Positions 1 through 18,064 of a stretch of 64,000 bases of DNA are shown here, one piece after another; position 1 is the stretch's first letter; every line of letters starts with the position of its first letter. The translations under genes were made by a program, and so were the position numbers. The notes below the pieces were generated by a model. That model searched no databases. It had not been told where the DNA came from and worked only from the letters and a program-made list of their open reading frames with translations. This stretch comes from Rathayibacter sp. VKM Ac-2754 (lineage in GTDB: Bacteria > Actinomycetota > Actinomycetes > Actinomycetales > Microbacteriaceae), in the NCBI RefSeq assembly GCF_009807095.1, contig NZ_WUCC01000006.1, positions 62,001 to 126,000 on the forward strand, in the 5' to 3' direction.

Positions 1-81
1 ATCGCGACGGCGGCCATCATCGCCGCCTTCTTCGTGCGACGCCCGGCCGAGTCGGACGCTCCGCTGCCCGTCGGCCACTAG
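1..81 (+). CDS. C-terminal end of a membrane protein, probably a transporter (partial)
   Basis: The window opens inside a reading frame whose last 26 codons encode a hydrophobic stretch (ATAAIIAAFF) followed by a short charged tail and a TAG stop. A final membrane helix with a basic cytoplasmic tail is typical of MFS-type transporters, but 26 residues cannot identify the family. It runs in the same direction as the synthetase that follows, so an export role for the product of that cassette is possible but unproven. Confidence 0.5.
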   Translation: MATAAIIAAFFVRRPAESDAPLPVGH

Positions 82-149
82 GCTGCCGCGAGCGCGGAGG
101 CGGTTCGGCGCGATCGGCGGCTGTTCACCTCCGCGACACCGGGCCGCTC

Positions 150-155
150 TACGGT
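150..155 (+). promoter_or_regulatory. -10 box for the Pls/PosA synthetase
   Basis: TACGGT matches the actinobacterial TANNNT consensus. Transcription from about 162 would exclude the upstream GTG at 154 and support the SD-preceded GTG at 205 as the start. A TTCACC at 124-129 is a weak -35 candidate with a long spacer. Confidence 0.35.
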
Positions 156-204
156 GACGCCCCGGTCGCCGCGTCGGATCGCGGGTCCGGAACGGAGACG
201 ACAC

Positions 205-3200
205 GTGGGTGGAACGAGCACCGGCAATCCTCAGGACCTCCTCGACGCCGGAGCGCTCGCGACGCCTCCGCGGACGCTGGTGGACGTCCTCCGCGACACC
301 GCGGAGAGGCACCCCGACGCCTCCGCCCTCGAGGACCCGGCCGGTGCGCTGAGCTACCGGGAGCTCCTGGCCCGCGTCGTCGGCACGGCCGGCGAGCTCA
401 CCGCCGCCGGAGTCCGCCGCGGTGATCGGGTCGGCGTCCGGATGGCGAGCGGCTCCCGCGAGCTGTACCTCGCGATCCTCTCGATCCTCGCCGCCGGCGC
501 CGCCTACGTGCCCGTCGACGCCGACGACCCGGAGGAGCGGGCGCAGCTCGTCTTCGGCGAGGCCGCCGTCGTCGGCGTCATCACCGGCTCGGGGCGCTTC
601 GAACGGAGCGAGGGCGAGCCCACCCGCCTCTTCGCCGGCTCGGCGCCGCACCCCAGCACGGCCTCGATCCCGCTGCTGCAGCCGCCCACCCTCGACGACG
701 ACGCCTGGATCATCTTCACGTCGGGCTCGACCGGCACCCCGAAGGGCGTCGCCGTCACCCACCGGTCGGCCGCCGCCTTCGTCGACGCCGAGGCGCGGCT
801 CTTCCTGCAGCAGGAGCCGCTCGGCCCGGGCGACCGCGTGCTGGCGGGTCTCTCGGTCGCCTTCGACGCCTCCTGCGAGGAGATGTGGCTCGCCTGGCGC
901 CACGGCGCCTGCCTGGTGCCCGCCCCGCGCTCGCTGGTGCGGAGCGGCATGGACCTCGGCCCGTGGCTGACCACCCACGGCATCACGGTCGTCTCGACCG
1001 TCCCGACCCTCGCCGCCCTCTGGCCCGCGGAGTCGCTCGAGAACGTGCGTCTGCTGATCTTCGGCGGCGAAGCCTGCCCGCCCGAGCTCGGCGAGCGCCT
1101 CGCGGTCGACGGCCGCGAGGTCTGGAACACCTACGGTCCGACCGAGGCCACCGTCGTCGCCTGCGCCGCCCCGCTCGGCGGCGAGGGTCCGGTGCGCATC
1201 GGCCTCCCCCTCGACGGCTGGCGCCTCGCCGTCGTCGACGCCGAGGGCGCGCGCGTCGGCGAGGGGGAGGTCGGCGAGCTGGTGATCGGCGGAGTCGGGC
1301 TCGCCCGCTACCTCGACGCCGCCAAGGACGCCGAGAAGTACGCCCCGGCTCCGACCCTCGGCTGGGACCGTGCCTACCGCTCGGGCGACCTGGTGCGGTT
1401 CGAGAGCGCCGGGCTCGTCTTCCAGGGCCGCGCCGACGACCAGGTCAAGCTCGGCGGCCGCCGCATCGAGCTCGGCGAGGTCGAGGCCGCCCTCCAGGCG
1501 CTTCCCGGAGTCGCCGGAGCCGCCGCTGCCGTCCGCACGACGAGCGCAGGCAACCAGGTGCTCGTCGGCTACCTCGCCCTGCCCGACGGGCGCGCACTCG
1601 ACCGGGATGCGGCGCTCGCGCGGCTCCGAGAGGAGCTGCCGGCCGCTCTCGTACCCCTCCTGGCGGTCGTCGCCGAACTGCCGACGCGCGTGTCGGGCAA
1701 GGTCGACCGCGCCGCGCTGCCGTGGCCGCTCGAGGGCGGTACCGAGGACGACTCCGCCCTCGACCCCGAGACCGCCTGGCTGGCCGCGCGCTGGCGCGAG
1801 GTGCTCGGTGTCCCCGTGGACGAGAAGGCCAACTTCTTCGATCTCGGCGGCGGCTCCCTCGCGGCGGCGCAGCTGGTCGCGCGGATCCGCGAGCGCGATC
1901 CCGAATTCACCGTCGCCGACGTCTACGCCCACCCGCGGCTCGCAGCGATGGCGTCCGAGATCACCGGCCGCGCGACCGGACTCTCCGAGGTCTCCGACCA
2001 CCGCATCGCCCCGGTCCCCCGCCGCATGCGCGTGCTGCAGACCCTCCTCGGCGCCCCGCTGCTCGTCCTCGGCAGCGCCCGCTGGCTGACCGCGATCCTC
2101 ACGGTGACCGCGATCCTCGACCTGCTGCCCGGCTTCGACTGGCTGCCCACCGTCTGGCTCGCCGTGCTGATCCCCGCCTTCGCGCTGTTCTGCACTCCGT
2201 TCGGGCGGATGGGCCTCACCGTCGTCGCGGCCCGGCTGCTGCTGCGCGGCGTGCGCGCCGGCGATCATCCGCGCGGCGGCGGGGTGCACCTCCGGCTCTG
2301 GCTGGCGGAGCAGATCGCGCACCAGCTCGGCGCGGTGAGCCTCGCCGGAGCGCCCTGGGTCGCCTACTACGCCCGCGCGCTCGGGGCCCGCATCGCCGAC
2401 GACGTCGACCTGCACTCGCTCCCGCCGCTGACCGGCATGCTCACACTCGGTCGCGGGGCCGCGATCGAGCCCGAGGTCGACCTCTCGGGCTACTGGATCG
2501 ACGGCGACGTCGTCCGCGTCGGCGCCGTGCGCGTCGGCGCCGGCAGCACCGTCGGCGCTCGGAGCACGCTGCTCCCCGGCGCCCGGATCGGCAAGAACGC
2601 GCAGATCGAAGCCGGCTCGGCCGTCTTCGGCCGCGTGCCCGCCGGTCAGCGCTGGGGCGGCTCCCCCGCCCAGCGCCTCGGCAAGGCCAATGCCGGCTTC
2701 CCCGCCGAGCGGCCGCCGAAGCGCACTGCCTGGGTGTGGGCGTACGGCGTCTCAGCCGTCGGTCTCGCCGCCGTCCCAGTCCTCGCCTTCGGCGCGGGCA
2801 CCGGAGTCGTCGCGATCGTCACGCAGGGATCGAGCGGTCTCGCGGAGGCGGTGCCGCGCGCCCTCGCCGCACTCGTCCCCGCCGTCTTCGTCACCGGCCT
2901 CGTGCTCGCCGCGCTCGTCGTTGCCTTCGTCCGCCTCCTCGGGCTCGGCGTCGACCGCGGCACCTACCCCGTGCGCGGGCGGATCGGCTGGCAGGTCTGG
3001 TCGACCGAGCGCCTGCTCGATCAGGCGCGCACGCTCCTCTTCCCCCTCTACTCCGGCCTGTTCACCCCGGTCTGGCTGCGCCTGCTCGGAGCGAAGGTCG
3101 GCCGCGACGTCGAGGCCTCGACCGTGCTTCTGCTGCCCGCGATGACGACGATCCGCGACGGCGCGTTCCTGGCCGACGACACCCTGGTCGCCTCCTACGC

Positions 3201-4143
3201 CCTCGGCGGCGGCTGGATGCGGCTGGCCCGCGCCGAGATCGGCGAGCGCGCGTTCCTCGGCAACTCGGGGATGGCGGCCCCCGGGCACACCGTCCCCGCG
3301 GGCGGCCTCGTCGCCGTGCTCTCGTCGGCACCGCGCAAGTCGAAGGCCGGCTCGTCGTGGCTGGGCTCGCCTCCGGTGCGCCTGCGACGGACCGTGGTCG
3401 AGGCGGAGTCGGCGCGCACGTTCCGCCCCGCCACGCGGCTCCGCATCGCCCGCATCGTCTGGGAGCTGCTGCGCTTCGTGCCGGTCGTCGTCTCGGTGGC
3501 GATCGGCTTCGGAGTCGTCGTGAGCCTGCTCGCGCTGGTGCAGACGGTCGGTGCGATCGTGACGACCCTGCTCGGCGGCCTGGTCCTGCTGGTCGCGGGC
3601 GCGGTGGCCGCGGCGGTCTCGACGGCGGCGAAGTGGCTGCTGATCCAGCGCGTGCGGCCGAGCGAGCATCCGCTCTGGTCGTCCTTCGTCTGGCGCAGCG
3701 AGCTAGCAGACACCTTCACCGAGATGGTCGCCGCTCCCTGGTTCGCCCACGCGGCGGCCGGCACTCCCGCGCTCGTCTGGTGGCTGCGCAGCCTGGGCGC
3801 GCGCATCGGGCGCGGCGTCTGGTGCGAGAGCTACTGGCTCCCGGAGGCGGATCTCGTCGAACTCGGCGACGGAGCGGCCGTGAACCGGGGCTGCGTCGTG
3901 CAGACGCACCTGTTCCATGATCGAATCATGAGCATGGATCTCGTGAGTCTCGACCCCGGTGCGACCCTCGGCCCGCACAGCGTGATCCTGCCCGCGGCGC
4001 GCATCGCCGCGCACGGCACGGTCGGGCCCGCCTCCCTGGTCATGCGCGGCGAGCTCGTGCCCGCCGGCAGCCGCTGGAGCGGCAACCCCATCGGACCGTG
4101 GCGCGACGTGCGCGTCGGCGACTACCACGCGCCCGTCGCGTGA
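205..4143 (+). CDS. Pls/PosA-family single-module nonribosomal peptide synthetase
   Basis: About 1312 residues. It should activate one amino acid as an acyl-adenylate, load it on its carrier domain and join units at the membrane, as in epsilon-poly-L-lysine synthetase (Pls). Residues about 20-500 are the adenylation domain: phosphate loop TSGSTGTPKGV (about 171), YGPTEA, YRSGDLV, GRADDQVKLGGRRIE and the SGKVDR lysine motif. Residues about 520-590 are the carrier domain with FFDLGGGSL (phosphopantetheine serine about 551). The remaining 700 residues alternate hydrophobic helices with three soluble blocks rich in hexapeptide-like turns; no HHxxxDG condensation motif and no thioesterase are seen, which is the Pls hallmark. 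GTG at 205 is preferred over 154 because GGAGA sits 5-8 nt upstream. Its stop overlaps the peptidase start. The product is inferred, not shown. Confidence 0.9.
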   Translation: MGGTSTGNPQDLLDAGALATPPRTLVDVLRDTAERHPDASALEDPAGALSYRELLARVVGTAGELTAAGVRRGDRVGVRMASGSRELYLAILSILAAGAAYVPVDADDPEERAQLVFGEAAVVGVITGSGRFERSEGEPTRLFAGSAPHPSTASIPLLQPPTLDDDAWIIFTSGSTGTPKGVAVTHRSAAAFVDAEARLFLQQEPLGPGDRVLAGLSVAFDASCEEMWLAWRHGACLVPAPRSLVRSGMDLGPWLTTHGITVVSTVPTLAALWPAESLENVRLLIFGGEACPPELGERLAVDGREVWNTYGPTEATVVACAAPLGGEGPVRIGLPLDGWRLAVVDAEGARVGEGEVGELVIGGVGLARYLDAAKDAEKYAPAPTLGWDRAYRSGDLVRFESAGLVFQGRADDQVKLGGRRIELGEVEAALQALPGVAGAAAAVRTTSAGNQVLVGYLALPDGRALDRDAALARLREELPAALVPLLAVVAELPTRVSGKVDRAALPWPLEGGTEDDSALDPETAWLAARWREVLGVPVDEKANFFDLGGGSLAAAQLVARIRERDPEFTVADVYAHPRLAAMASEITGRATGLSEVSDHRIAPVPRRMRVLQTLLGAPLLVLGSARWLTAILTVTAILDLLPGFDWLPTVWLAVLIPAFALFCTPFGRMGLTVVAARLLLRGVRAGDHPRGGGVHLRLWLAEQIAHQLGAVSLAGAPWVAYYARALGARIADDVDLHSLPPLTGMLTLGRGAAIEPEVDLSGYWIDGDVVRVGAVRVGAGSTVGARSTLLPGARIGKNAQIEAGSAVFGRVPAGQRWGGSPAQRLGKANAGFPAERPPKRTAWVWAYGVSAVGLAAVPVLAFGAGTGVVAIVTQGSSGLAEAVPRALAALVPAVFVTGLVLAALVVAFVRLLGLGVDRGTYPVRGRIGWQVWSTERLLDQARTLLFPLYSGLFTPVWLRLLGAKVGRDVEASTVLLLPAMTTIRDGAFLADDTLVASYALGGGWMRLARAEIGERAFLGNSGMAAPGHTVPAGGLVAVLSSAPRKSKAGSSWLGSPPVRLRRTVVEAESARTFRPATRLRIARIVWELLRFVPVVVSVAIGFGVVVSLLALVQTVGAIVTTLLGGLVLLVAGAVAAAVSTAAKWLLIQRVRPSEHPLWSSFVWRSELADTFTEMVAAPWFAHAAAGTPALVWWLRSLGARIGRGVWCESYWLPEADLVELGDGAAVNRGCVVQTHLFHDRIMSMDLVSLDPGATLGPHSVILPAARIAAHGTVGPASLVMRGELVPAGSRWSGNPIGPWRDVRVGDYHAPVA

Positions 4144-5462
4144 GCCCCGCGCAGACAGGACTCGAGACCGCCGGCGACCCGTACCTCCCCGGTATCGGCA
4201 ACACCGGCTACCGCGTCGAGTCGTACGACCTCGACCTCGACTACCGGGTCGCGACGAACCGGCTCGCCGCTCGGGCGACCCTGCAGATCGTCGCACTGCA
4301 GCCGCTGCGCCGCTTCTCACTCGATCTGAGCCGCCTGCGGGTGACCCGCGCTCGCGTCGCCGGGCGCAAGGCGCGCACCGAGCAGACGGCGCACAAGCTG
4401 AGGATCACGCCCGCCGAGCCGCTCGAGGCGGGCGAGTCGTTCGTGCTCGAGATCGAGTACGGCGGCCACCCCGGGCCACGCGTCAGCCACTGGGGCGAGC
4501 TGGGCTGGGAGGAGCTCGCCGACGGCGTGCTCGTCGCCTCGCAGCCCTCCGGCGCGTCAACCTGGTTCCCCTGCAACGACGACGTCGCCGAGAAGGCGCC
4601 GTACCGGATCCGCATCACCGCCGAGGAGGGCTACTCGGCCCTCGCGAACGGCGTGCTCCTCGAGACCAGCGGGCGCTCGGGCCGGCGGACGTGGCTCTAC
4701 GAGCAGCGCGAGCCGACCGCGACCTATCTGGCCTCGGTGCAGATCGGCCGCTACGTCATCGAGGACCGCATCCTGGCGGGAGTCGCGGTGAGCATCGCCC
4801 GCCCGGCCGCGCTGGCCCTCCGGGTGGCCCGCGACTTCGCTCCGCTCAGCGACATGATCGCCTTCTTCGAGCGCGTCTTCGGCCCCTACCCGTTCGCCCG
4901 CTACACGGTGGTCGTCACGGCGGACGTGCTCGAGATCCCGCTCGAGGCGCAGGGCATGGCGATCTTCGGCGCGAACCACGCCGACGGCCGCGGGGGCTCG
5001 GAGCGGCTGATCGCGCACGAGCTCGCCCACCAGTGGTTCGGCAACAGTGTCGGCATCGCGAGCTGGCGGCACATCTGGCTCAACGAGGGCTTCGCCTGCT
5101 ACGCCGAGTGGCTGTGGTCGGAGGAGTCGGGCGGCCCGTCCGCCGACACGCTGGCCCGGCGCCACCACGCGCTCCTGCGCTCCCAGCCGCAGGACCTCGT
5201 GCTCGGCGATCCCGGCCCGGTCGCGCTCTTCGACGACCGCGTCTACAAGCGCGGTGCGCTGACGCTGCACGCGGTGCGCCTCCGGGTGGGCGACGCCGTC
5301 TTCTTCGCGCTGCTGCGCGCGTGGGCGTCACGGCACGCCTCCGCGACCGTCACCGACGAGGACTTCCGCGAGCTCTGCGCCGAGCTGACCGACGGCGTCG
5401 ACGACCTGCTCGACGCGTGGCTGCTCGACGAGGCGCTGCCCGCGCTGCCGACCGCTCGCTGA
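4140..5462 (+). CDS. M1-family zinc metallopeptidase (aminopeptidase-like)
   Basis: About 440 residues, shorter than full-length PepN-type enzymes because the long C-terminal helical domain is missing. The catalytic signature HELAH (about residue 292) with the third zinc ligand in NEGFACYAE about 18 residues later is intact. The usual GAMEN exopeptidase motif is replaced by QGMAIF. GTG at 4140 overlaps the synthetase TGA (GTGA), so the two are translationally coupled. M1-type aminopeptidases are known beside pls genes, where they cleave the polymer or protect the producer; that role is inferred here. No signal peptide is evident, so it is probably cytoplasmic. Confidence 0.88.
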   Translation: MSPAQTGLETAGDPYLPGIGNTGYRVESYDLDLDYRVATNRLAARATLQIVALQPLRRFSLDLSRLRVTRARVAGRKARTEQTAHKLRITPAEPLEAGESFVLEIEYGGHPGPRVSHWGELGWEELADGVLVASQPSGASTWFPCNDDVAEKAPYRIRITAEEGYSALANGVLLETSGRSGRRTWLYEQREPTATYLASVQIGRYVIEDRILAGVAVSIARPAALALRVARDFAPLSDMIAFFERVFGPYPFARYTVVVTADVLEIPLEAQGMAIFGANHADGRGGSERLIAHELAHQWFGNSVGIASWRHIWLNEGFACYAEWLWSEESGGPSADTLARRHHALLRSQPQDLVLGDPGPVALFDDRVYKRGALTLHAVRLRVGDAVFFALLRAWASRHASATVTDEDFRELCAELTDGVDDLLDAWLLDEALPALPTAR

Positions 5463-5468
5463 CGCCTG

Positions 5469-6227
5469 CTAACGGCCGCCCGCCGGCACCAGCGACTCCG
5501 CCAGCGCATCGGCGTCCTCGCGGCGCCAGCCGATGATCGGCCCGACGCTCCGCCCCTCGATCGGCCCGAGCGCGACGCTCACGCGGAACGCCGGGTCGAG
5601 CTGCGGCTCGGCCAGCCGGTAGCGCGCCTGGTCGATCCGCGCCTCCGCGGACAGACGCGACTCGTGGATCCGGACCCGGCGCGGGTCGACCTCGAGCCCG
5701 CGGCCGTCGGCCTTCAGCGCCGCCTCGACCCGCGTCCAGTGCAGGATCGGGTCGGCCGGCCGCATCGCTCCCATCGAGAACGGCGCCCCGGCGACCTGCG
5801 TGATGCGGGCGCCCCGATCGGCCGGCCCCTCGACCGGCTCGATGTCGACGCCGACGGTCCCCGCGCTGCTCGCCGCGACCACGACGGCACCGGCGCAGTG
5901 CGCGATGCTCACCGACAGCCGTGCGAGCGCCGCATCGGGCCCCTCGAGTGCCGGGCGGCCGTGCGGCCCTCCGCAGCTCGCGCAGCGCGCCACCACGCTG
6001 ATCGCGGTCGGATCCCCGGCCGTCAGCTCGGCCGCCAGCAGCCGCAGCAGCACCCGCCCGAAGACGAAGCGCTCCGCGATCGCGGCCGACACCGTGCTCC
6101 GGTAGCGCTCGCACTCGAGCGCCGTCAGGAGAGGCAGCAGCGACTCGGCGTCGAGACTCTGCTCCTCCAGTGCCAGCCAGCGCAGATGCACGCCGGGCAG
6201 GTCGAGGCCGTGCTCCCTGTCCTCCAC
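5469..6227 (-). CDS. 4'-phosphopantetheinyl transferase (Sfp-type)
   Basis: About 252 residues, the normal Sfp-class length. It transfers phosphopantetheine from CoA to the serine of a carrier protein. VGVDIEP (Mg-binding DxE) and WTRVEAALKADGRG (the W-x-x-KEA-like motif) are both present; SIAHC replaces the usual SxSHS. It is convergent with the synthetase-peptidase pair and ends 6 bp from the peptidase stop. The adjacent carrier domain (serine about 551 of the synthetase) is the obvious substrate. GTG at 6227 is chosen because the in-frame upstream ATG at 6269 would lie inside the end of the polyphosphate kinase gene. Confidence 0.85.
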   Translation of the reverse strand: MEDREHGLDLPGVHLRWLALEEQSLDAESLLPLLTALECERYRSTVSAAIAERFVFGRVLLRLLAAELTAGDPTAISVVARCASCGGPHGRPALEGPDAALARLSVSIAHCAGAVVVAASSAGTVGVDIEPVEGPADRGARITQVAGAPFSMGAMRPADPILHWTRVEAALKADGRGLEVDPRRVRIHESRLSAEARIDQARYRLAEPQLDPAFRVSVALGPIEGRSVGPIIGWRREDADALAESLVPAGGR

Positions 6228-6268: not shown

Positions 6269-7255
6269 CTACCGTGCCGTCGCGACGTGCTCGCCGCGCT
6301 CGTAGACCTCGGACGCGGAGCCGACGATCAGCGGGTCCGGTCCCTGCGGCGAGACGACCTCGTCGTCACGGCCGTCGTACTCGTAGAGGCTCAGCACGTA
6401 GCGCATCGCCTCGAGTCTCGCGCGCTTCTTGTCGTTGCTCTTGACGATCGTCCACGGCGCGTCGGAGGTGTCGGTCGCGGCCATCATCGCCTCCTTCGCC
6501 GCCGTGTAGTCGCCCCACTTGTCGAGCGAGGCGAGGTCCATCGGCGAGAGCTTCCACTGCCGCACCGGGTCGATCATGCGGATCGTGAAGCGCGTGCGCT
6601 GCTCCTCCGCCGAGACCGAGAACCACAGCTTGACCAGGTCGATCCCGTCGCCCGTGAGCATGCTCTCGAACAGCGGGGTCTGGCGGATGAACTCGTCGTA
6701 CTGCTCCGGCGTGCAGAACCCCATCACGCGCTCGACGCCGGCGCGGTTGTACCAGGAGCGGTCGAACAGCACGATCTCTCCCGCGGCGGGGAGGTGCGAG
6801 ACGTAGCGCTGGAAGTACCACTGGGTGCCCTCGCGCTCGGTCGGCTTCTCGAGCGCGACCACGCGGGCTCCGCGCGGGTTGAGGTGCTCGGTGAAGCGCT
6901 TGATCGTGCCGCCCTTGCCCGCGGCGTCGCGCCCCTCGAAGACGACCACGAGCCGGCGGCCGTTCTTCTTGATCCAGTTCTGCAGCTTCAGCAGCTCGAT
7001 CTGCAGGAGGCGCTTGCCCGCCTCGTACTCCTCGCGCGACATCCGCTCGTCGTAGGGGTAGCCCTCGCGCCAGGTGTCGATCTGCGTGCCGTCGCGGCGG
7101 AGCAGGACGGGATCGTCGTCGTCCTCGTCGAGCACGACGAGATCCCGGGCGTCCTCGGGAGTCAGCGTGCGCAGGAGCTCGGGTGTGGGGATCAGCTCGG
7201 TCTCGGGGTGAAGCGCGGAGAGGGGCTGCGGAGAGGAGTCGGAGAAGGCAGGCAC
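6269..7255 (-). CDS. ppk2: Polyphosphate kinase 2 (PPK2 family)
   Basis: About 328 residues. PPK2 enzymes move phosphate between polyphosphate and nucleoside di- or monophosphates. Walker A EGRDAAGKGG (about residue 130), the lid region NPRGARVVALEKPTERE, and Walker B DRSWYNRAGVE are all present, the classic single-domain PPK2 layout. GTG at 7255 lies 6 nt after a TANNNT hexamer (7262-7267), fitting a leaderless mRNA. It runs in the same direction as the phosphopantetheinyl transferase gene downstream, so read-through is possible. Substrate class (I, II or III) cannot be decided by eye. Confidence 0.93.
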   Translation of the reverse strand: MPAFSDSSPQPLSALHPETELIPTPELLRTLTPEDARDLVVLDEDDDDPVLLRRDGTQIDTWREGYPYDERMSREEYEAGKRLLQIELLKLQNWIKKNGRRLVVVFEGRDAAGKGGTIKRFTEHLNPRGARVVALEKPTEREGTQWYFQRYVSHLPAAGEIVLFDRSWYNRAGVERVMGFCTPEQYDEFIRQTPLFESMLTGDGIDLVKLWFSVSAEEQRTRFTIRMIDPVRQWKLSPMDLASLDKWGDYTAAKEAMMAATDTSDAPWTIVKSNDKKRARLEAMRYVLSLYEYDGRDDEVVSPQGPDPLIVGSASEVYERGEHVATAR

Positions 7256-7620: not shown

Positions 7621-8112
7621 CTAGCCGATGTAGTAGACGAGTCCGCGCTTCGACCGAGCCACCTCGGTCGTGAATCTCACTGCTCTGTCGAGGAAGCGGG
7701 AGATGTACTCCGCGTCGTCCTTCGTCGGATCTCCGGCGTCGAACACCTGTTGCAGCTCGACGAGGTCGTCCGCGATCTCCGCGATCTCCTCGGGCACGAG
7801 AGCCCGCATCCACGGAATCCAGCCGTACCCGTTCGGCGTCACCCGGCCCTCGAACATCCGGTGGGCCGGGCGCGGAGTCCCGCCCGGCGCTCGAGCAGCG
7901 GTCAGCGCCTGCAACGGCGACCAGGCCTTGTCCAGGTGGACCATGTCCCGCTCCGGCAAGGACTGCTCGAAGTTCGTGACCGCCATCGCAGCACCGTGGG
8001 GCATGCCCCAGGCATCCGCCAGCGGATCGTCGCCGATCACGCTCCGTGGATCGGCCAGTGCCGCCTCGGTCCGATCGGCGTCGAAAGCGTATGCGTAGTA
8101 TCTGATTCCCAT
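7621..8112 (-). CDS. DUF1877 / YfbM-like protein
   Basis: About 163 residues starting MGIRYYAYAFDADRTEAAL. Features include WSPLQALT, an HRMFEG element, NGYGWIPWMRALVPEEIAEIADDL and a C-terminal FLDRAVRFTTEVARSKRGLVYY block, the layout of YfbM-like DUF1877 proteins, which have no known activity. No signal peptide or membrane helix. ATG at 8112 is chosen over the longer open frame to 8427 because it matches the family N-terminus; CAGGAT 6 nt upstream is a near-consensus -10 and may give a leaderless transcript. Confidence 0.7.
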   Translation of the reverse strand: MGIRYYAYAFDADRTEAALADPRSVIGDDPLADAWGMPHGAAMAVTNFEQSLPERDMVHLDKAWSPLQALTAARAPGGTPRPAHRMFEGRVTPNGYGWIPWMRALVPEEIAEIADDLVELQQVFDAGDPTKDDAEYISRFLDRAVRFTTEVARSKRGLVYYIG

Positions 8113-8236
8113 CCGCCGATCCTGCCGAGCAGAGCGCGGCCGCATCGGCGAATCCGCCCCGCGTGGGGACGGCTCCCGTTCATCGCCCGCTGTGGAGGAG
8201 CGCCGCTCGTCACCTCCACACCTCTGGTCGCCGGCG

Positions 8237-8914
8237 TCAGAACGCGGCGGGCGGCAGGTCCGTCTCGCCGGCCTCGATCGCGTCCACGATGCGGCCGGCG
8301 ACCGACGCCGGCGAGTGCCCAGCGCCGAACCTCGGGGCCGAGCCGGCGAGCGGATGCGTCGACAGCTCCGTCTCGGTGTGGCCGGGCCGAGCGTCGAGCA
8401 GCAGGACGCCCGCCCGCTTGTACTCACGCGCCGACGCCCTGACGAACGAGTACAGGGCGGCCTTCGACGCGGAGTACGCGGCGAGACCGGCGGTGGGAGC
8501 CTCGGCGACCACTCCGCTGATCGTGACCGCGAACGGCTCGCGCCCGGCCGTCGCCGACTGCGACAGCGCCTCGAAGGCGGCCGTCAGCAGCCGGATCGGT
8601 GCGAGTGCGTTCACCTCGACGAGCTCCTCGAGCACCGCGGGATCGAGCTCGGTCGACGGGCCGAAGGCGACGACACCGGAGGCGACCACTACGCCGTCGA
8701 GACGACCGTGCCGCGCCAGCACCTCGCTGATCAGCCGCCGCGGAGCCTCCTCGCCGCGCAGATCGGCGACCAGCGGTTCGGAACCCAGCGCGTCCGCGTC
8801 TCGTCCGGAGCGGACGGCTCGGGCGCCGCGCGCCTCCAGCTCGTCGGCGATGAGCCGGCCGAGCCCACCGGAGGCTCCGAGGACGAGGACGACGGCGCTA
8901 TCGAGTCGGGTCAT
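8237..8914 (-). CDS. Short-chain dehydrogenase/reductase
   Basis: About 225 residues, Rossmann-fold SDR. The nucleotide-binding GASGGLGRL is at residues 13-21, the catalytic Ser lies in TISGVVAE, and the YSASKAA catalytic Tyr/Lys motif is at about 150. The substrate cannot be deduced. The N-terminal strand carries a glycine-rich loop of the classical type. It is divergent from the small gene at 8992, and both have leaderless-type -10 hexamers back to back in the 77-bp gap. Confidence 0.9.
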   Translation of the reverse strand: MTRLDSAVVLVLGASGGLGRLIADELEARGARAVRSGRDADALGSEPLVADLRGEEAPRRLISEVLARHGRLDGVVVASGVVAFGPSTELDPAVLEELVEVNALAPIRLLTAAFEALSQSATAGREPFAVTISGVVAEAPTAGLAAYSASKAALYSFVRASAREYKRAGVLLLDARPGHTETELSTHPLAGSAPRFGAGHSPASVAGRIVDAIEAGETDLPPAAF

Positions 8915-9358: not shown

Positions 9359-10417
9359 GTGGACGAGGATCGACGCGCTCCGGCGGGCTGGTATCCGGAG
9401 GGCGCGGCGATGCGCTGGTGGGACGGCACCCGGTGGACCGAGGACCGCATGCCCGCCGCCGATCGCCCGCCGTCGCGCGCCGAGTCGCGTCCCGTCCTCC
9501 GCCTCCCGAACGCCGACGGCACCCCGACCGTCGACGCGATCGACGAGGCCGAGCGGATCGAGGAGATCGCCGACGTCCTCGGTAGGCCCCTGCGCGCCGC
9601 CGAGGTGGTCGAGGAGTCGCTCGAGGTCGAGCTGGTCCCCGAGCCCGACCATCCCACTGGAGCCCCCGCGATCTCGATCCGCACGCGGGGCCGCGTGATC
9701 GGCTACCTCCCCGACGCGACCGCCTACCGGCCCGCTATCGACCGGATCGTCGCGAGCGGAGTCGTCCCCGTGACGGGCGCGCGCCTCCGGGTCGAGCGCG
9801 GCGAGCAGGGGCTGCGGGCGTCCCTCCGACTCGCTCTGCCGGTGCCCGACCTCGTGGTGCCGGTCAACGAGCCCCCGACGTCGCGCTACTCCGTGCTGCC
9901 CTGGGGCCGCGGGCTGCAGGTGCAGCGCGAGGACGAGCACTTCGCTCAGCTGACCGCGATCGTCGAGGGCCGCGCCCTGGTCCTGGTGACGTTGCACCTG
10001 CTCCCGAGCGACCTGATAGAGGTGCGACTGCACGGCGCCCGTGTCGGCGAGCTCTCGCCCGGCACCTCGCCGCACTTCGCGCCCACCGTCCGCCATCTGG
10101 AGGGGCTCGGGCTGACGGCGACGGCCTACGCCGCACTGCGCAGCTCGCCCCTGAAGGCCGAGCTGACGCTCCAGGCAGCGCGCGCCTCGGAGCTGCCCGC
10201 GCACTGGGTCGACGGGCCCGCGGTGACGCTGCCGGCGCTGGTGCCCGCCGCAGAGCGCTACGAGGTGCCCGCCGCGTACGTCCGCCCGCTGCGCCGCTCC
10301 TCGCGCACCTCGGAGGCGATCAGCCGCTCGACCCGCCGCGTCATCGCCTGGGTCGTGGTCGCCATCGCGACTCTCGTCGGCCTCTCGAGCTGGATCATCG
10401 GAGACCTGCTCGACTGA
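9359..10417 (+). CDS. DUF2510 membrane protein with duplicated HIRAN-like domain
   Basis: About 352 residues. An N-terminal DUF2510 motif (APAGWYPEGAAMRWWDGTRW, residues about 7-26) is followed by two related blocks of about 60 residues: SIRTRGRVIGYLPDATAYRP (about 106) and EVRLHGARVGELSPGTSPHF (about 221). Both pair a short beta strand with G-x-V-G-x-L/S-P and an A-x-LR-V/L strand, reminiscent of HIRAN domains (tentative). A C-terminal helix, RVIAWVVVAIATLVGLSSW, anchors it in the membrane, leaving a very short tail. No function is known. GTG at 9359 follows GGGGAG at good spacing. A deleted copy is present at 12216-12410. Confidence 0.75.
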   Translation: MDEDRRAPAGWYPEGAAMRWWDGTRWTEDRMPAADRPPSRAESRPVLRLPNADGTPTVDAIDEAERIEEIADVLGRPLRAAEVVEESLEVELVPEPDHPTGAPAISIRTRGRVIGYLPDATAYRPAIDRIVASGVVPVTGARLRVERGEQGLRASLRLALPVPDLVVPVNEPPTSRYSVLPWGRGLQVQREDEHFAQLTAIVEGRALVLVTLHLLPSDLIEVRLHGARVGELSPGTSPHFAPTVRHLEGLGLTATAYAALRSSPLKAELTLQAARASELPAHWVDGPAVTLPALVPAAERYEVPAAYVRPLRRSSRTSEAISRSTRRVIAWVVVAIATLVGLSSWIIGDLLD

Positions 10418-10894: not shown

Positions 10895-11992
10895 TCAGCC
10901 CAGCTCCCCGTCGAGGGGCTCCTCGTTCCCCGGTTCGCCGTCACTCGGCTCCTCCTCTTGCGGTGCACCGTCTCCGTCCGACCCCCAGACGAAGATCCCG
11001 GGCGGAGACGTGATCTCGACAAGAGCGTCCGACTCCGTCGTGATCGTCGCCCCCACCTCCGTCTCGATGTACTGCCCGCTGGTGTCGACCGCGACGCCGG
11101 CGCTCTCACCGGTCAGCGTCGCCGTGATCGTCTCGTCGACAGCGATCGTCCCGCTCCACGTCACGACCAGGTCGGGCCACTGGGTCTCCCAGGTCCAACC
11201 CTCCCGGTCGAAGTCTCCGTAAGCGCTGAACGCGGCGCGGCCGGCCTCGGGACCGACCGCCGCGGAGAGGGACGCTGTGAACGACCCCGTGAACTCGGTG
11301 TTCTCGGCGACCGAGAACGTCACATCCAGGCTGGTCGTCCCGTCGACGGGGAGGACGGAGTCGTAGAGGCCCCAGCTGACCGAGAGGGTCGGAGCGGTCG
11401 ACGGGTCGCCGCCGTCGTCCGGCGCTCCTTCTCCGTCCGTTCCCCAGTACGCCTGCTCCGGCTCCGAGACGACGACCTCGACCCCCTCGGGACTCGTGAC
11501 GAGGACCGTCCTGGTGAAGGTGTCGACGTACCTGCCATCGGTGTCGATGTCGACCCGGCTCCCGGTGCCGGAGTCGCCGAGGTACCCGGTGGTCGCGGCG
11601 CTCGCGTCGAAGGAGCCCGTGAAGGAGAGGAGGAGGTCCGGCCCGACCTGGGTGTAGCTCCAGCCGGGGTCGCCGCCGATGTCGCCGACCCCCGTCATCG
11701 TCGCGAGGACCTCGTCCGGGTCGGTGTAGGCGGAGGCGAGGAACGAGAAGGAGCCGGTGAACACCTCCCCCTCGGTGAGCACAGCACCGAACTGGATGGC
11801 GGTCGACTCTCCGACCTTCAACTCGGCCTCGACGAACGTCCAGTAGACCAGGAGGCTGGGCGCAGGGGTCGACGCGGCGGCAGCCGGCGCCGACACCGCG
11901 GCGACCACGATCGGCGCCGTCCACCCCGCGGCCTGCACAAGGGAACGGCGGGTCGGCATCGACGGCGATGCGGAGGAGATGTCGCGGTTCAC
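10895..11992 (-). CDS. Tat-exported protein with two copies of an unrecognised domain
   Basis: About 365 residues. The N-terminus has a twin-arginine signal, PTRRSLVQAAGWTAPIVVAA, ending in an APAAAAS cleavage-like region near residue 40. The mature protein has two homologous beta-rich blocks of about 140 residues. Each begins with a short strand plus Trp (VYWTFVE / VSWGLYD), has FTGSF, W-x-x-x-x-x-PDL-hydrophobic-S/W-x-GT, a DT-x-G-x-Y element and ends near YWGTDGEGAP / VWGSDGDGAP. The C-terminal tail is highly acidic (EEEPSDGEPGNEEP). GTG at 11992 follows GGAG at 5 nt. No known family recognised; probably a secreted or wall-associated protein. Paralogue at 12453. Confidence 0.78.
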   Translation of the reverse strand: MNRDISSASPSMPTRRSLVQAAGWTAPIVVAAVSAPAAAASTPAPSLLVYWTFVEAELKVGESTAIQFGAVLTEGEVFTGSFSFLASAYTDPDEVLATMTGVGDIGGDPGWSYTQVGPDLLLSFTGSFDASAATTGYLGDSGTGSRVDIDTDGRYVDTFTRTVLVTSPEGVEVVVSEPEQAYWGTDGEGAPDDGGDPSTAPTLSVSWGLYDSVLPVDGTTSLDVTFSVAENTEFTGSFTASLSAAVGPEAGRAAFSAYGDFDREGWTWETQWPDLVVTWSGTIAVDETITATLTGESAGVAVDTSGQYIETEVGATITTESDALVEITSPPGIFVWGSDGDGAPQEEEPSDGEPGNEEPLDGELG

Positions 11993-12452: not shown

Positions 12453-13007
12453 TCAGTCTGCGGGAGGGCCCCACTGCACGTTGCGCGGACCCAGCACGAC
12501 TGCCGTCGCCTCACCGGACTCCACCATCGGCTCGTAGCGCATCCGGGTGTCGACACCGGAGTCGTCGTCACGCAGTCTCAATCCCGCCCCGTCGTCGTTC
12601 GTCAGGAATCCTTCGGCTCGGTCGTATCCCGAGACCGTGCCCTCCCACGTCAGGAGCACTCGGCCCGACAGGTTCTGATAGCCCCAGCCCTCGCCGTAGA
12701 TGACGCCGAACCCGTCGAGATCGGCGCGGTCCTCCCCGACGAGAGCCGACATCAGGACGACGACGCGACCGGTGAAGGGCTCCGAGAAGGGCTCTCCGTC
12801 GAGTCGGCCGATCGCGGCGTACAGGTTGCGGGAGCCGTCGATCGGGTCCTCGGGCACTTCGATCGACAGGTCGACCAGGAGTTCCAGGGCGGCGTCGGAG
12901 GCCGCTGCCGAGGGGGCGGCGACGGCCGCTACTGCGATCGGCGTCGTCCACGCGGCTGCGCGAACGATGCTCCGTCGGGAGAGGGGAGCCGGATCCATGG
13001 TGTCCAT
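12453..13007 (-). CDS. Tat-exported protein, single-domain paralogue
   Basis: About 184 residues with a twin-arginine signal, PLSRRSIVRAAAWTTPIAVA, and an APSAAAS cleavage-like site. The mature part is one beta-rich block related to each half of the protein at 10895: EPFTGRVVVLMSA, GEGWGYQN, VLLTWEGTV and a terminal VQWGPP, equivalent to VWGSDGDGAP. ATG at 13007 is chosen because it directly precedes the signal peptide; 12998 is the alternative. Function unknown. It shares upstream sequence with its paralogue, suggesting co-regulation. Confidence 0.75.
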   Translation of the reverse strand: MDTMDPAPLSRRSIVRAAAWTTPIAVAAVAAPSAAASDAALELLVDLSIEVPEDPIDGSRNLYAAIGRLDGEPFSEPFTGRVVVLMSALVGEDRADLDGFGVIYGEGWGYQNLSGRVLLTWEGTVSGYDRAEGFLTNDDGAGLRLRDDDSGVDTRMRYEPMVESGEATAVVLGPRNVQWGPPAD

Positions 13008-13142
13008 TCCGCCCGTCGAGACGGACTGGGGGTGATGCAGGCGCGGTCCTGCCGTGCGCACGTCGGCTGCCCTCCGACTCGCGCAGCTGCCGCATCACGC
13101 GCCCGCTGCTCCGATCCGGGGCATTGACGGAGGTGACATCCG

Positions 13143-13240: not shown

Positions 13241-14314
13241 CTACACGTTGAAGCGGAACTCCACGACGTCGCCGTCCTGCATCACGTAGTCCTTGCCCTC
13301 GATGCGGGCCTTGCCCTTCGCGCGCGCCTCCGCGATCGAGCCCGTCTCGACCAGGTCGTCGAACGAGATGATCTCGGCCTTGATGAAGCCCTTCTGGAAG
13401 TCGGTGTGGATCACGCCGGCCGCCTGCGGAGCCGTCCAGCCCTTGCCGATCGTCCAGGCGCGCGTCTCCTTCGGGCCGGCCGTCAGGTAGGTCTGCAGCC
13501 CGAGGGTGTCGAAGCCGATGGTCGCGAGCTGGTTCAGGCCCGACTCGGTCTGGCCGGTCGACTCGAGCATCTCGGCGGCGTCGGCGGCGTCGAGGTCGAT
13601 GAGCTCCGACTCCAGCTTCGCGTCGAGGAAGATCGCCTGCGCGGGCGCCACGAGCGCGGCCAGCTCGCCCTTGCGCGCGTCGTCGGTCAGCACGGCCTCG
13701 TCGACGTTGAACACGTAGATGAAGGGCTTCGCGGTCAGCAGGCCCAGCTCGCGGATCGGCTCGAGGTCGATCGAGGACGCCGACAGCGGCTTGCCCTGAT
13801 CGAGGAACTCGCGCGCCTTCTTGGCGGTCTCGACCACGATCGGCTCGATCTTGCGGCCCTTCAGCTCCTTCTCGTACCGCGCCTCGGCCTTCTCGAGGGT
13901 CTGCAGATCGGCCAGCACCAGCTCGGTGTTGATCGTCTCCATGTCGCTCGCCGCGTCGACCTTGCCGTCGACGTGCACGACGTCCGAGTCCTCGAAGCCG
14001 CGGATGACCTGGGCGATCGCGTCGGCCTCGCGGATGTTGGCGAGGAACTTGTTGCCGAGCCCCTCCCCCTCGGAGGCGCCGCGCACGATGCCGGCGATGT
14101 CGACGAACGAGACGGGCGCCGGCAGGATGCGCTCGGAGCCGAAGATGCCGGCGAGCACCTCGAGACGGGAGTCGGGCAGGTTCACGACCCCCACGTTGGG
14201 CTCGATGGTCGCGAACGGGTAGTTCGCGGCGAGCACCGTGTTCTTGGTCAGCGCGTTGAAGAGCGTCGACTTGCCGACGTTGGGGAGTCCGACGATTGCG
14301 ATAGTGAGAGCCAC
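13241..14314 (-). CDS. ychF: Redox-regulated ATPase YchF (Obg family)
   Basis: 357 residues, full length. N-terminal GLPNVGKSTLFNAL is the P-loop; DIAGIVRGASEGEGLGNKFL is switch II/G3. The C-terminal TGS-like region carries GPKETRAWTIGKGWTAPQAA and ends in MQDGDVVEFRFNV, diagnostic for YchF. YchF binds ribosomes and prefers ATP to GTP. GTG at 14314 lies 8 nt from TAGGAT, consistent with a leaderless transcript. The gene is divergent from the exonuclease. Confidence 0.97.
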   Translation of the reverse strand: MALTIAIVGLPNVGKSTLFNALTKNTVLAANYPFATIEPNVGVVNLPDSRLEVLAGIFGSERILPAPVSFVDIAGIVRGASEGEGLGNKFLANIREADAIAQVIRGFEDSDVVHVDGKVDAASDMETINTELVLADLQTLEKAEARYEKELKGRKIEPIVVETAKKAREFLDQGKPLSASSIDLEPIRELGLLTAKPFIYVFNVDEAVLTDDARKGELAALVAPAQAIFLDAKLESELIDLDAADAAEMLESTGQTESGLNQLATIGFDTLGLQTYLTAGPKETRAWTIGKGWTAPQAAGVIHTDFQKGFIKAEIISFDDLVETGSIAEARAKGKARIEGKDYVMQDGDVVEFRFNV

Positions 14315-15874: not shown

Positions 15875-18064
15875 TCAGCCGCAGGACTCGAGTCGCGCGA
15901 CCGAGTCGGACAGCGTCCCGGTACCGCCGAGCAGCACAACCTTCTTGGCTCCGAGCGTGCGGATGTCGTCGAGCACGGCCTGCGGGACGCAGGTCGGCTG
16001 CACGGCGAAGAGCGGGCTCCTCGTGAACCCGGCCGCGGTCGCCCCCGCGAGAGCATCCGGGAACTTCTCGCCCGTCGCGAGGTAGACGGTGCTCGCCGAC
16101 GTGAACGCCGCGCGGTTGAGCTTCTCGGAGGTGTCGTAGCGGTTGACGCCGCCGATGCGCGTCGAGGTCACCGGCAGGGAGTTCTTGATCCCCTCGCTGA
16201 CCGAGAGCGCGCTGCCCGCGATGGTGAGGGTCTTGACGCCCAGCTGACTGACGAGGCTCTTCGTCGTGGCGTCGGCCGTCGGGAGACCGCCGTTCACGAG
16301 CACGACCGGCGCCCTGACCGATCCCGCGGCCGCGCTCGCACTGAGAGCGTCCGGGAACTTCTCGCCCGTCGCGAGCCAGGCCTTCGTGGAGCCCTGCGGG
16401 AACGCGTACTGGATGATCTGCTTCGAGGTGTCGTAGCGGTCGACTCCGCCGATGCGCTGGATCGACTTCGTGTACTCGGCGAGGTCGTTCTTGAGCGCGT
16501 CGCTCACGCTGAGCGCCGATCCGACGACGACGATCTTGGCCGGCTTCAGCCGGGTCAGCTCGTCGCGCACGGCCTGGGTCATCGAGTCGCGGTCGACCAG
16601 GAGGAGCGGGCCGCCCTGCTTCGCGGCCGCCGGCCCTGCGCTGAGCGCGTCGGGGAAGTTGCCGCCGGTCGCGACGTAGACGACCGGCACGTTCGCACCG
16701 AAGGTCGCCTTCGAGATCTCGACGGCCGTGCCCTGGCGGTCGCTGCCGGCGAGACGGCTGACGGCCACGGAGCCCTGGTTGCTGGCAGTCGTGCAGCCGA
16801 GGTCCTTCGATCCGGGGGCCTTCGAGTCGCCGGAGCCGGTCCAGAGGTTCCAGGCGACGGAGGCGGCGCTCACGCAGACGGTATAGGTGCCCTGCGCCGA
16901 CGCCGGCACCGTGGCGGTGAAGCCGTGCCGGCGACCCGCAGCCGGGTACTCGCCGGGGATGTCGCCGCGGTCGCCGCCTGCGCTCTGCGTGCGGACGGTC
17001 TTGGAGCCGTCGGGAGCGGTGACGGTCACCGTGGTCGAGAGGGCCGTCTGCTGGGTGGTCGGGTCGACGGCCCAGCCGGAGGCGGTGAGGGTGCCACCGG
17101 AGATGCGCGGCGCGTCCTGACGGCCGACCGGCGCGATCCCCGCGTTGGCGAGCGTTCCGTTCCAGTCGCTGAAGATGTACCAGAAGTTGATGTTGCCGTA
17201 GGTCGCGCAGGCCTGGTTGCCGCTGTTGGTGAGCGCGTAGTCGTTCGGCTGGTAGGGCGTGTAGTAGTAGAGGTTCGCCGTGGCCTGGTTGCGGATCGTC
17301 ACGGGCGACGAACCGCACGAGGTGTCGGGGTTGTAGAGGATGCTCGGCGTCGTGTCCTTCGCGTACGCGGTGAAGGTGGAACCCGATCCGGGCGGGTTCG
17401 CGTACTTCTTGAACTGACGCGCGGCCCCGTAGACCTGGGTGAAGAAGCCGGCCGAACCGTTGTCGCAGCCGGTCAAATCGGGGCAGTTGAAGCCGGTCGC
17501 ACGGTTGTAGAGGCGCTCGGTGGGGCTGGTCGTCGTGACCAGGCTGGTCTCCTTCTGCACCAGCACGGCGAGCACGAGCGGGTTGATGCCGCAGGCCTCA
17601 CCGACCCGGGTGAAGATCGACGCCGCCGACTCCCGCGAGCTGCCGGTGTACGCCTTGCACATCGCGTCGGCCGCCTTGCTCGGCGTCTGCTGACTGAACG
17701 CCTTGAGGCACGGGACGCCGTTGGGGGTGCCGGAGCAGTTCTGGCCCTTGTCGTCGAGGATCGCCTGCATCTGCGAAGCGGTGCGCGAATCGCTGTCGAA
17801 GAAGTTCGCGTCGCTGAAGATGTACCCGGCGCGGAAGCTCTTGGTGCTGCTCGCCTCGTACTGCACCGCCTGGTCGGGCAGCCCGGTGCCGTCGTCGACC
17901 GCGACGAGCGAATCGGTCGTACCCGGGTCGACGAGGACGGACGCCGGCGGGGCGACGTCCTCGGCAGCGGAGGCGGACGAGATCGGGACGATAGCGGTTC
18001 CGAGCCCGACGGCGACGGCGAGCGCGGCGGTGAGCAGGCGCGATGAGCGGCGGTGATTCCCCAT
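15875..18064 (-). CDS. Cell wall-binding repeat 2 protein with lysozyme-like domain
   Basis: About 729 residues. Signal peptide LLTAALAVAVGLGTAIVPIS (about 9-28). Residues about 55-300 form the lysozyme-like domain shared with 14971 (VLAVLVQKETSLVT, LYYYTPYQPND, NFWYIFSDWNG). Then comes an Ig-like stretch (TASGWAVDPTTQQTALSTTV to YTVCVSAASV). The last 300 residues hold three cell wall-binding repeat 2 units, each with R-x-x-G-x-D/N-R-Y/Q, VATGGNFPDAL or ATGEKFPDAL, and a GGxGTLS/GSALSVS element. It is probably attached non-covalently to the wall. ATG at 18064 matches the signal peptide start and lies 8 nt from TAGGCT. Confidence 0.88.
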   Translation of the reverse strand: MGNHRRSSRLLTAALAVAVGLGTAIVPISSASAAEDVAPPASVLVDPGTTDSLVAVDDGTGLPDQAVQYEASSTKSFRAGYIFSDANFFDSDSRTASQMQAILDDKGQNCSGTPNGVPCLKAFSQQTPSKAADAMCKAYTGSSRESAASIFTRVGEACGINPLVLAVLVQKETSLVTTTSPTERLYNRATGFNCPDLTGCDNGSAGFFTQVYGAARQFKKYANPPGSGSTFTAYAKDTTPSILYNPDTSCGSSPVTIRNQATANLYYYTPYQPNDYALTNSGNQACATYGNINFWYIFSDWNGTLANAGIAPVGRQDAPRISGGTLTASGWAVDPTTQQTALSTTVTVTAPDGSKTVRTQSAGGDRGDIPGEYPAAGRRHGFTATVPASAQGTYTVCVSAASVAWNLWTGSGDSKAPGSKDLGCTTASNQGSVAVSRLAGSDRQGTAVEISKATFGANVPVVYVATGGNFPDALSAGPAAAKQGGPLLLVDRDSMTQAVRDELTRLKPAKIVVVGSALSVSDALKNDLAEYTKSIQRIGGVDRYDTSKQIIQYAFPQGSTKAWLATGEKFPDALSASAAAGSVRAPVVLVNGGLPTADATTKSLVSQLGVKTLTIAGSALSVSEGIKNSLPVTSTRIGGVNRYDTSEKLNRAAFTSASTVYLATGEKFPDALAGATAAGFTRSPLFAVQPTCVPQAVLDDIRTLGAKKVVLLGGTGTLSDSVARLESCG

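Follow-up and report, generated by a model that had tools for sequence, protein, structure and literature searches.

The 64,000-nucleotide stretch of Rathayibacter sp. VKM Ac-2754 analysed here (contig NZ_WUCC01000006.1, positions 62,001 to 126,000; hereafter the window) carries, close to its first letter, a Pls/PosA-family synthetase gene (pls) followed by an M1 peptidase gene. We read this region, with a probability of roughly 0.8, as a pls-pldII locus for epsilon-poly-L-lysine, of the type found in actinobacteria, that has been enlarged by two helper genes, encoding a phosphopantetheinyl transferase (PPT) and a polyphosphate kinase 2 (PPK2). The evidence consists of the gene identities, the lysine pocket of the synthetase, the coupling of the first two genes, the conserved neighbourhood, an intact PPT motif and an association of PPK2 with pls in two families, the Microbacteriaceae and the Micrococcaceae.

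In the proposed pathway, the PPT would attach a phosphopantetheine arm to the carrier domain of Pls, giving holo-Pls. The adenylation (A) domain would activate L-lysine at the cost of ATP, with release of AMP and pyrophosphate, and load it onto the carrier, and the membrane-bound C-terminal module would join the lysines by way of their epsilon-amines. Degradation of the polymer, as self-protection, may fall to the coupled M1 peptidase, while PPK2 could regenerate ATP from ADP and polyphosphate for the costly polymerisation. The polymerisation of lysine and the degradation of the product are argued from published homologues.

Layout and conservation of the locus

All coordinates are positions in the window unless a locus or contig is named, and G000 denotes the genome from which the window comes. 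The features of the locus are as follows.

205..4143, + strand: pls, predicted Pls/PosA-family epsilon-poly-L-lysine synthetase, with adenylation and thiolation (A-T) domains and a three-part membrane polymerisation module (TIGR02353; 7wew is the closest solved chain)
271..1734, + strand: adenylation domain with lysine-type pocket D A E S I G T V V K (aligned to 7wew, residues 26-527)
1777..1956, + strand: thiolation (carrier) domain with the LGGGSL serine (PF00550, 49.9 bits)
2032..4092, + strand: terminal (polymerisation) region of the nonribosomal peptide synthetase, with three hydrophobic groups and hexapeptide (left-handed helix) repeats (TIGR02353 residues 627-1313; hydropathy; Pfam hexapeptide)
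4140..5462, + strand: M1 metallopeptidase, PldII-like, GTGA-coupled to pls (PF01433, 91.6 bits; HELAH-X18-E)
5469..6227 (start up to 6269), - strand: Sfp-like 4'-phosphopantetheinyl transferase (PPT), convergent with M1 (GVDIE and WTRVEAALK motifs; HMM matches below cut-off)
6269..7255, - strand: polyphosphate kinase 2 (PPK2) (TIGR03707, 376.1 bits; cut-off 301.8)
1..81, + strand: last part (3') of an efflux gene of the DHA2 MFS family that precedes pls, given as context (TIGR00711, 316.1 bits; cut-off 230.2)

The pls frame is open from 154, has a GTG start at 205 preceded by GGAG at 194-197, and ends with the stop at 4141-4143. This stop is overlapped by the GTG start of the M1 gene (4140-4142), the two forming GTGA (4140-4143). 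The M1 gene ends at 5462, and a gap of 6 bp (5463-5468) separates it from the PPT gene, which lies on the minus strand with a stop that complements 5469-5471 and a start at 6227 or as far upstream as 6269. An initial annotation had placed a synthetase, an M1 peptidase and a PPT within 205..6227; the open frames confirm the three genes at these positions, and both the GTGA coupling and the convergent PPT ending 6 bp away are seen in the sequence. Its limits fit these three genes and overlook a fourth. PPK2 lies upstream of the PPT gene on the same minus strand, with 41 bp between it and the PPT start at 6227, and is counted here as part of the locus, which an end at 6227 leaves out.

Relatives were compared in several samples. 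The pocket, M1 and PPT counts for named loci use the best 80 of at least 595 loci. The Micrococcaceae sample comprised 120 genomes, 65 of them with pls, and loci were compared from 59 of these 65; the Microbacteriaceae sample comprised 199 genomes, 81 of them with pls. Fifteen genomes of a 296-genome phylum sample gave a pls match at E ≤ 1e-60. Two loci are present in duplicate (L027 = L053, Frondihabitans sp. Leaf304; L172 = L098, Paeniglutamicibacter terrestris), and row counts include both copies, so that the 48 PPT rows described below represent 47 loci and the 35 linked PPK2 rows 34 loci.

Synteny in relatives had been set beforehand as a test of the cassette, and it holds: M1 lies downstream of pls on the same strand in 80/80 named loci (the pls match in L108 being a partial gene), and the arrangement is therefore beyond chance. 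The same order was found in 23 of the 24 genomes with pls above the cut-off among 60 searched, our own included. In the single exception, L043, the pocket is not of lysine type and M1, which is divergent, lies on the opposite strand. Within the 59 Micrococcaceae loci, M1 was at most 1.2 kb from pls in 53, farther away in 4 and unfound in 2. Four loci of this family (L228, L229, L230 and L231) form a second Pls lineage, with M1 about 3.4-4 kb past pls.

The lysine pocket and the coupled peptidase

The synthetase scored 689.6 bits with TIGR02353 (Pls/PosA; cut-off 423.1), over positions 1-695 of the 695 in the profile. The Pfam hits were limited to AMP-binding (with the associated C-terminal domain), PP-binding and hexapeptide families. 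Neither a condensation nor a thioesterase family appeared at E ≤ 0.001, which bears out the earlier description of a single-module A-T synthetase lacking both. Hydropathy analysis placed three hydrophobic groups at residues 614-668, 842-918 and 1081-1147, with another at 86-106 in the A domain. The family, domain and neighbourhood matches together support the earlier proposal of a synthetase that makes an amino-acid homopolymer and is partnered by a peptidase.

The closest solved chain, 7wew, is an epsilon-poly-L-lysine synthase and scored 612.6 bits over the aligned stretch. Reading this alignment by eye, we found the pocket DAESIGTVVK to be equal to that of 7wew at 10/10 residues. The ten positions are those we take to line the pocket, and their spacing is within one residue of the published PosA residues. 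Since the substrate can be read from this match, the product is predictably, and very probably, epsilon-poly-L-lysine. It had initially been presented as undescribed, a view that the lysine pocket does not bear out.

The same code is present in 80/80 named actinomycete loci and in 23 of 26 other loci, our own among the 23; the remaining three comprise L043 (DFEYNGTVTK), one divergent pocket and one locus without coverage. In the Micrococcaceae, 56/59 loci have DAESIGTVVK and 3/59 (L230, L232 and L233) have DAESIGTVIK, and of 18 new loci in the phylum sample, 12 have the full lysine code and 6 a partial or divergent one. At pocket position 2, Ala is found in lysine enzymes, Met in ornithine enzymes and Phe in diaminopropionate/butyrate enzymes (PMC10522769). 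The synthetase of L043 (L043:2617-6639), also of Pls/PosA type, has Phe at this position, as in the diaminopropionate/butyrate enzymes, and its divergent M1 peptidase (L043:6650-7909) is convergent to it, 10 bp away.

The M1 peptidase scored 91.6 bits against PF01433 (cut-off 27.7) and contains the zinc motif HEXXH-X18-E, as HELAH. It shares 48-52% identity with the pls-adjacent peptidases of eight Streptomyces/Kitasatospora loci, and its only hydrophobic stretch is a weak one at residues 211-229. The role of the peptidase in trimming the polymer, as first suggested, is uncertain, because the available reports on PldII disagree: chain length was unchanged in knock-outs in earlier work and changed in a later repression study.

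A phosphopantetheinyl transferase and a polyphosphate kinase as proposed helpers

The GVDIE and WTRVEAALK motifs of the PPT correspond to the PPT motifs GxDxE and WxxxEAxxK. In 48 aligned rows of linked PPTs, which include the window itself and a row (L045) that adjoins another Pls/PosA-type gene, WxxxEAxxK is kept in 48/48 and D-x-E in 41/48. Using a hidden Markov model (HMM) trained on Micrococcales, we detected a linked PPT in 28/35 named Micrococcales/Propionibacteriales loci versus 0/45 others, with taxon groups assigned by hand from record titles and one named locus in each group ending less than 0.8 kb after M1. Twenty-four of the 28 are convergent and lie no more than 1.3 kb from M1. 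A strict regular expression was positive in 0/52 HMM-negative loci and missed 10/28 HMM-positive ones, and aligned columns were therefore used instead. Among the 59 Micrococcaceae loci, 35 have a convergent PPT no more than 1 kb from M1, 15 have one at another place in the locus, and in 9 none was seen.

The genome has two PF00550 carriers at E ≤ 0.01: one is the T domain of Pls, the other lies in a frame of 94 aa. An explanation of the PPT by many other carriers was rejected on this count. Apart from AcpS, the linked PPT is the sole catalytically intact Sfp-like PPT that we found in the genome. A second PPT-like gene (C18:53203-53808; L130:10201-10953, minus strand) is 40% identical to it and has counterparts of similar score in 14/15 genomes of the genus. 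Unlinked paralogues have lost the catalytic Glu in 5/5 examined, with D-x-E retained in 2 of the 5, and the C18 gene is probably a conserved but inactive PPT relative. It adjoins a gene for a class A penicillin-binding protein with PASTA domains. With two carriers and one motif-intact Sfp-like PPT, the self-sufficiency originally claimed for the cassette is plausible, and we consider it likely, on sequence grounds, that the linked PPT serves Pls.

In genome G001 (contig C6; L129:15664-15735 and 16460-16764), the corresponding site has no pls or M1 from the MFS gene to the PPT gene, either through a natural deletion or because it was never filled. PPK2 and the genes that follow it are also absent there, on the far side of the retained PPT.

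The solved chains nearest to PPK2 are 5ll0 and 4yeg, followed by 3czq and 6dzg, with matches over residues 65-319 or 47-313. The last of these is named a polyphosphate:ADP phosphotransferase, and we take the PPK2 proteins of known structure to be of class I. In the genus, PPK2 adjoins the PPT gene in 11 of 12 pls-bearing genomes (our own included), as it does in G025, a genome of one further genus. G001 and G012, both of which are without pls, gave no PPK2 match at E ≤ 1e-40. The 120 Micrococcaceae genomes gave 103 PPK2 matches at E ≤ 1e-70; in 20 cases, which include the 19 best-scoring matches, the gene follows pls on its strand at a distance of up to about 6 kb. PPK2 is thus beside pls in 20/65 pls-bearing Micrococcaceae genomes, and in 14 of the 20 linked loci the order is pls, M1, PPT (reversed), PPK2, which is that of the window with PPK2 flipped.

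A tree of 76 chosen PPK2 rows placed the 35 linked rows (34 loci) in a single 47-row clade with SH-aLRT support of 87; it came from a quick search with no bootstrap, on hand-chosen rows that include 16 of 83 unlinked Micrococcaceae copies. The linked label required 3 changes on this tree against a shuffled mean of 25.5. Rows from pls-bearing genomes make up 46/47 of the clade; of its 12 non-linked members, one is the G013 copy and 11 belong to genomes that do carry pls. The 29 rows outside it divide into 13 from pls-bearing genomes and 16 that are not; pls status was assigned manually for the unlinked rows. Because of their long branches, L074 and L091 were left out of the second of the PPK2 trees. 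Related PPK2 (E < 1e-150) occurs in 15 of the 199 Microbacteriaceae genomes, all of them pls-bearing, and is linked to pls in 4; other PPK2 occurs in 30 genomes, 15 with pls (Fisher p 0.0006 versus related PPK2, uncorrected for kinship). Walker A is present in 35/35 linked PPK2 rows and a strict Walker B in 30/35. One pls-adjacent PPK2, L174 (G379:C136), contains an internal stop; the assembly is 82% complete in about 350 contigs, and the stop points to either a pseudogene or a sequencing error.

A number of observations weigh against the locus as we read it. The PPT scored below every family cut-off (ACPS, 20.2 versus 25 bits; HetI, 23 versus 370). The earlier label 'Sfp-type' thus rests on motifs and conservation; the motifs stand, the family HMM cut-off was missed, and we prefer Sfp-like. 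Absence of the PPT outside the Micrococcales may be overstated, because the HMM was trained on that group. G001 lacks pls and M1 (window 69-5469 is absent) and retains the PPT, which can therefore have other work. G002 has pls and no PPK2 match at E ≤ 1e-40. G013 has PPK2 and no pls match; since about 20 bases separate the PPT-facing end of PPK2 from the start of its contig, pls may simply have been left out of the assembly. In 45/65 pls-bearing Micrococcaceae genomes there is no linked PPK2, and in 11/15 Microbacteriaceae genomes the related PPK2 sits away from pls. PPK2 is accessory at best, being unlinked or missing in many pls-bearing genomes, and 5/35 linked rows deviate from the strict Walker B. 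Class I PPK2 mainly uses ADP, whereas Pls releases AMP, and adenylate kinase would therefore be needed as a bridge.

Some of these observations would be expected if PPK2 and the PPT were neighbours of pls through common descent of the region, with no functional tie to it. The survival of the PPT after pls in G001, the lack of PPK2 beside pls in most Micrococcaceae genomes with pls and the unlinked copies in the Microbacteriaceae all agree with such a history. We nevertheless regard it as unlikely. Gene orientation and order vary between the two families, and four other close neighbours of the locus in the window (MFS, DUF2277, the 7621-8427 frame and SDR) were shared at ≥50% identity in 0/59 Micrococcaceae loci, one SDR reaching 27%, although 58/59 of these loci extend at least 4.8 kb past pls, enough to reveal all four. 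Two outer control genes (9359-10417 and 13241-14314) were also found in 0/59, but most loci end short of their distance. The PPK2 clade is nearly confined to pls-bearing genomes even where the gene is unlinked, and G001 lacks PPK2 at the site along with pls and M1, with no match anywhere in its genome at the threshold given above.

If PPK2 does work with pls, the direction of its reaction matters. PPK2 is reversible, and polyphosphate, as a polyanion, is opposite in charge to the polycationic epsilon-polylysine; the enzyme could make or adjust polyphosphate that binds the product in the cell, for detoxification or storage, instead of supplying ATP. The genomic association of PPK2 with pls fits this proposal as well as it fits ATP supply. 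We think it improbable, more so than simple common descent, given the name carried by 6dzg, one of the nearest solved chains, and the outcome of adding PPK2 with PAP to Streptomyces albulus, where intracellular ATP rose by 71.56% and epsilon-poly-L-lysine by 21.24% (PMC10012588). This engineered increase lends support to ATP supply as the role of PPK2. We put the odds that PPK2 supports the epsilon-poly-L-lysine pathway at about even, and a supply of ATP driven by polyphosphate would be its predicted contribution. More tentatively, and at somewhat less than even odds, certain Microbacteriaceae and Micrococcaceae loci may combine a dedicated PPK2 subfamily with a dedicated PPT, so that making, activating, powering and degrading would be encoded in four adjacent genes.

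That the synthetase makes another basic polymer (of ornithine, diaminobutyrate or beta-lysine) is very improbable: relatives with different pockets make different polymers (PMC10522769) and pocket codes sometimes fail to predict the substrate, but the pocket here is that of 7wew at every position, with the Ala at position 2 that marks lysine enzymes (PMC10522769), and the peptidase gene context is typical of lysine enzymes and not of the other three polymer synthetases (PMC8117764).

Relation to known systems and neighbouring genes

The pls-pldII core is already known. A pls-peptidase operon has been described in S. albulus and Corynebacterium variabile, along with Pls homologues in Microbacterium and Arthrobacter (PMC8117764); pldII is translationally coupled to pls (PMC9223678); and polylysine-type (NAPAA) clusters have been reported in Microbacteriaceae genomes (PMC10303725, PMC10011130). 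In view of these reports, the core cannot be called new for the Microbacteriaceae. A structure prediction of the Pls C-terminal module has also been published (PMC10522769).

The S. albulus pls-pldII system resembles the window in domain layout, lysine pocket (7wew) and coupled downstream M1 (PMC8117764, PMC9223678). A linked PPT or PPK2 was found in 0/8 named Streptomyces/Kitasatospora loci, a set to which S. albulus itself does not belong. The operon of C. variabile, a coryneform actinobacterium, likewise joins pls to a gene for a peptidase, and its pls was shown to yield epsilon-poly-L-lysine in S. coelicolor; unlike the window, the published account, in its available portion, names no PPT or polyphosphate kinase (PMC8117764). 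PosA, the delta-poly-L-ornithine synthetase of Acinetobacter, shares the TIGR02353 family and the A-T-membrane plan, but has Met for Ala at pocket position 2 and uses ornithine (PMC10522769). The engineered S. albulus strain paired the PPK2 family with epsilon-poly-L-lysine synthesis by a man-made combination of PPK2B from C. glutamicum with PAP, whereas the PPK2 of the window lies naturally beside pls, a linkage of which the available text makes no mention (PMC10012588). With the PPK2s of known structure (5ll0, 4yeg, 3czq and 6dzg) the window PPK2 shares a sequence match and the Walker A motif; it differs in belonging to a clade whose sampled rows are almost all from pls-bearing genomes. We found no published description of a PPT or PPK2 linked to pls in a literature survey that covered few subscription papers.

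The core implies that epsilon-poly-L-lysine is probably made by this bacterium, as it may be by other coryneform actinobacteria. The PPK2 link bears on how cells fund a polymer synthesis that is limited by ATP, and the association suggests that evolution paired with pls, in two actinobacterial families, the very enzyme family that engineers introduced into S. albulus for higher yield (PMC10012588). The natural PPK2 and PPT are ready-made candidates for testing or for production strains, and a role of polyphosphate becomes directly testable.

The MFS gene lies upstream of pls in 12/12 pls-bearing genomes of the genus, our own included. It was rejected as a member of the cassette, being kept in G001, which has no pls, and absent near pls in 59/59 Micrococcaceae loci. 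On the other side of the locus, the minus-strand frame at 7621-8427 is conserved in the genus (59-84% identical in six relatives) and has no NCBIfam match. Further on, two adjoining minus-strand frames (10895-11992 and 12453-13061) have similar Tat-like signal starts, judged by eye: RRSLVQAAGWTAPIVVAAVSAPAAAA and RRSIVRAAAWTTPIAVAAVAAPSAAA.

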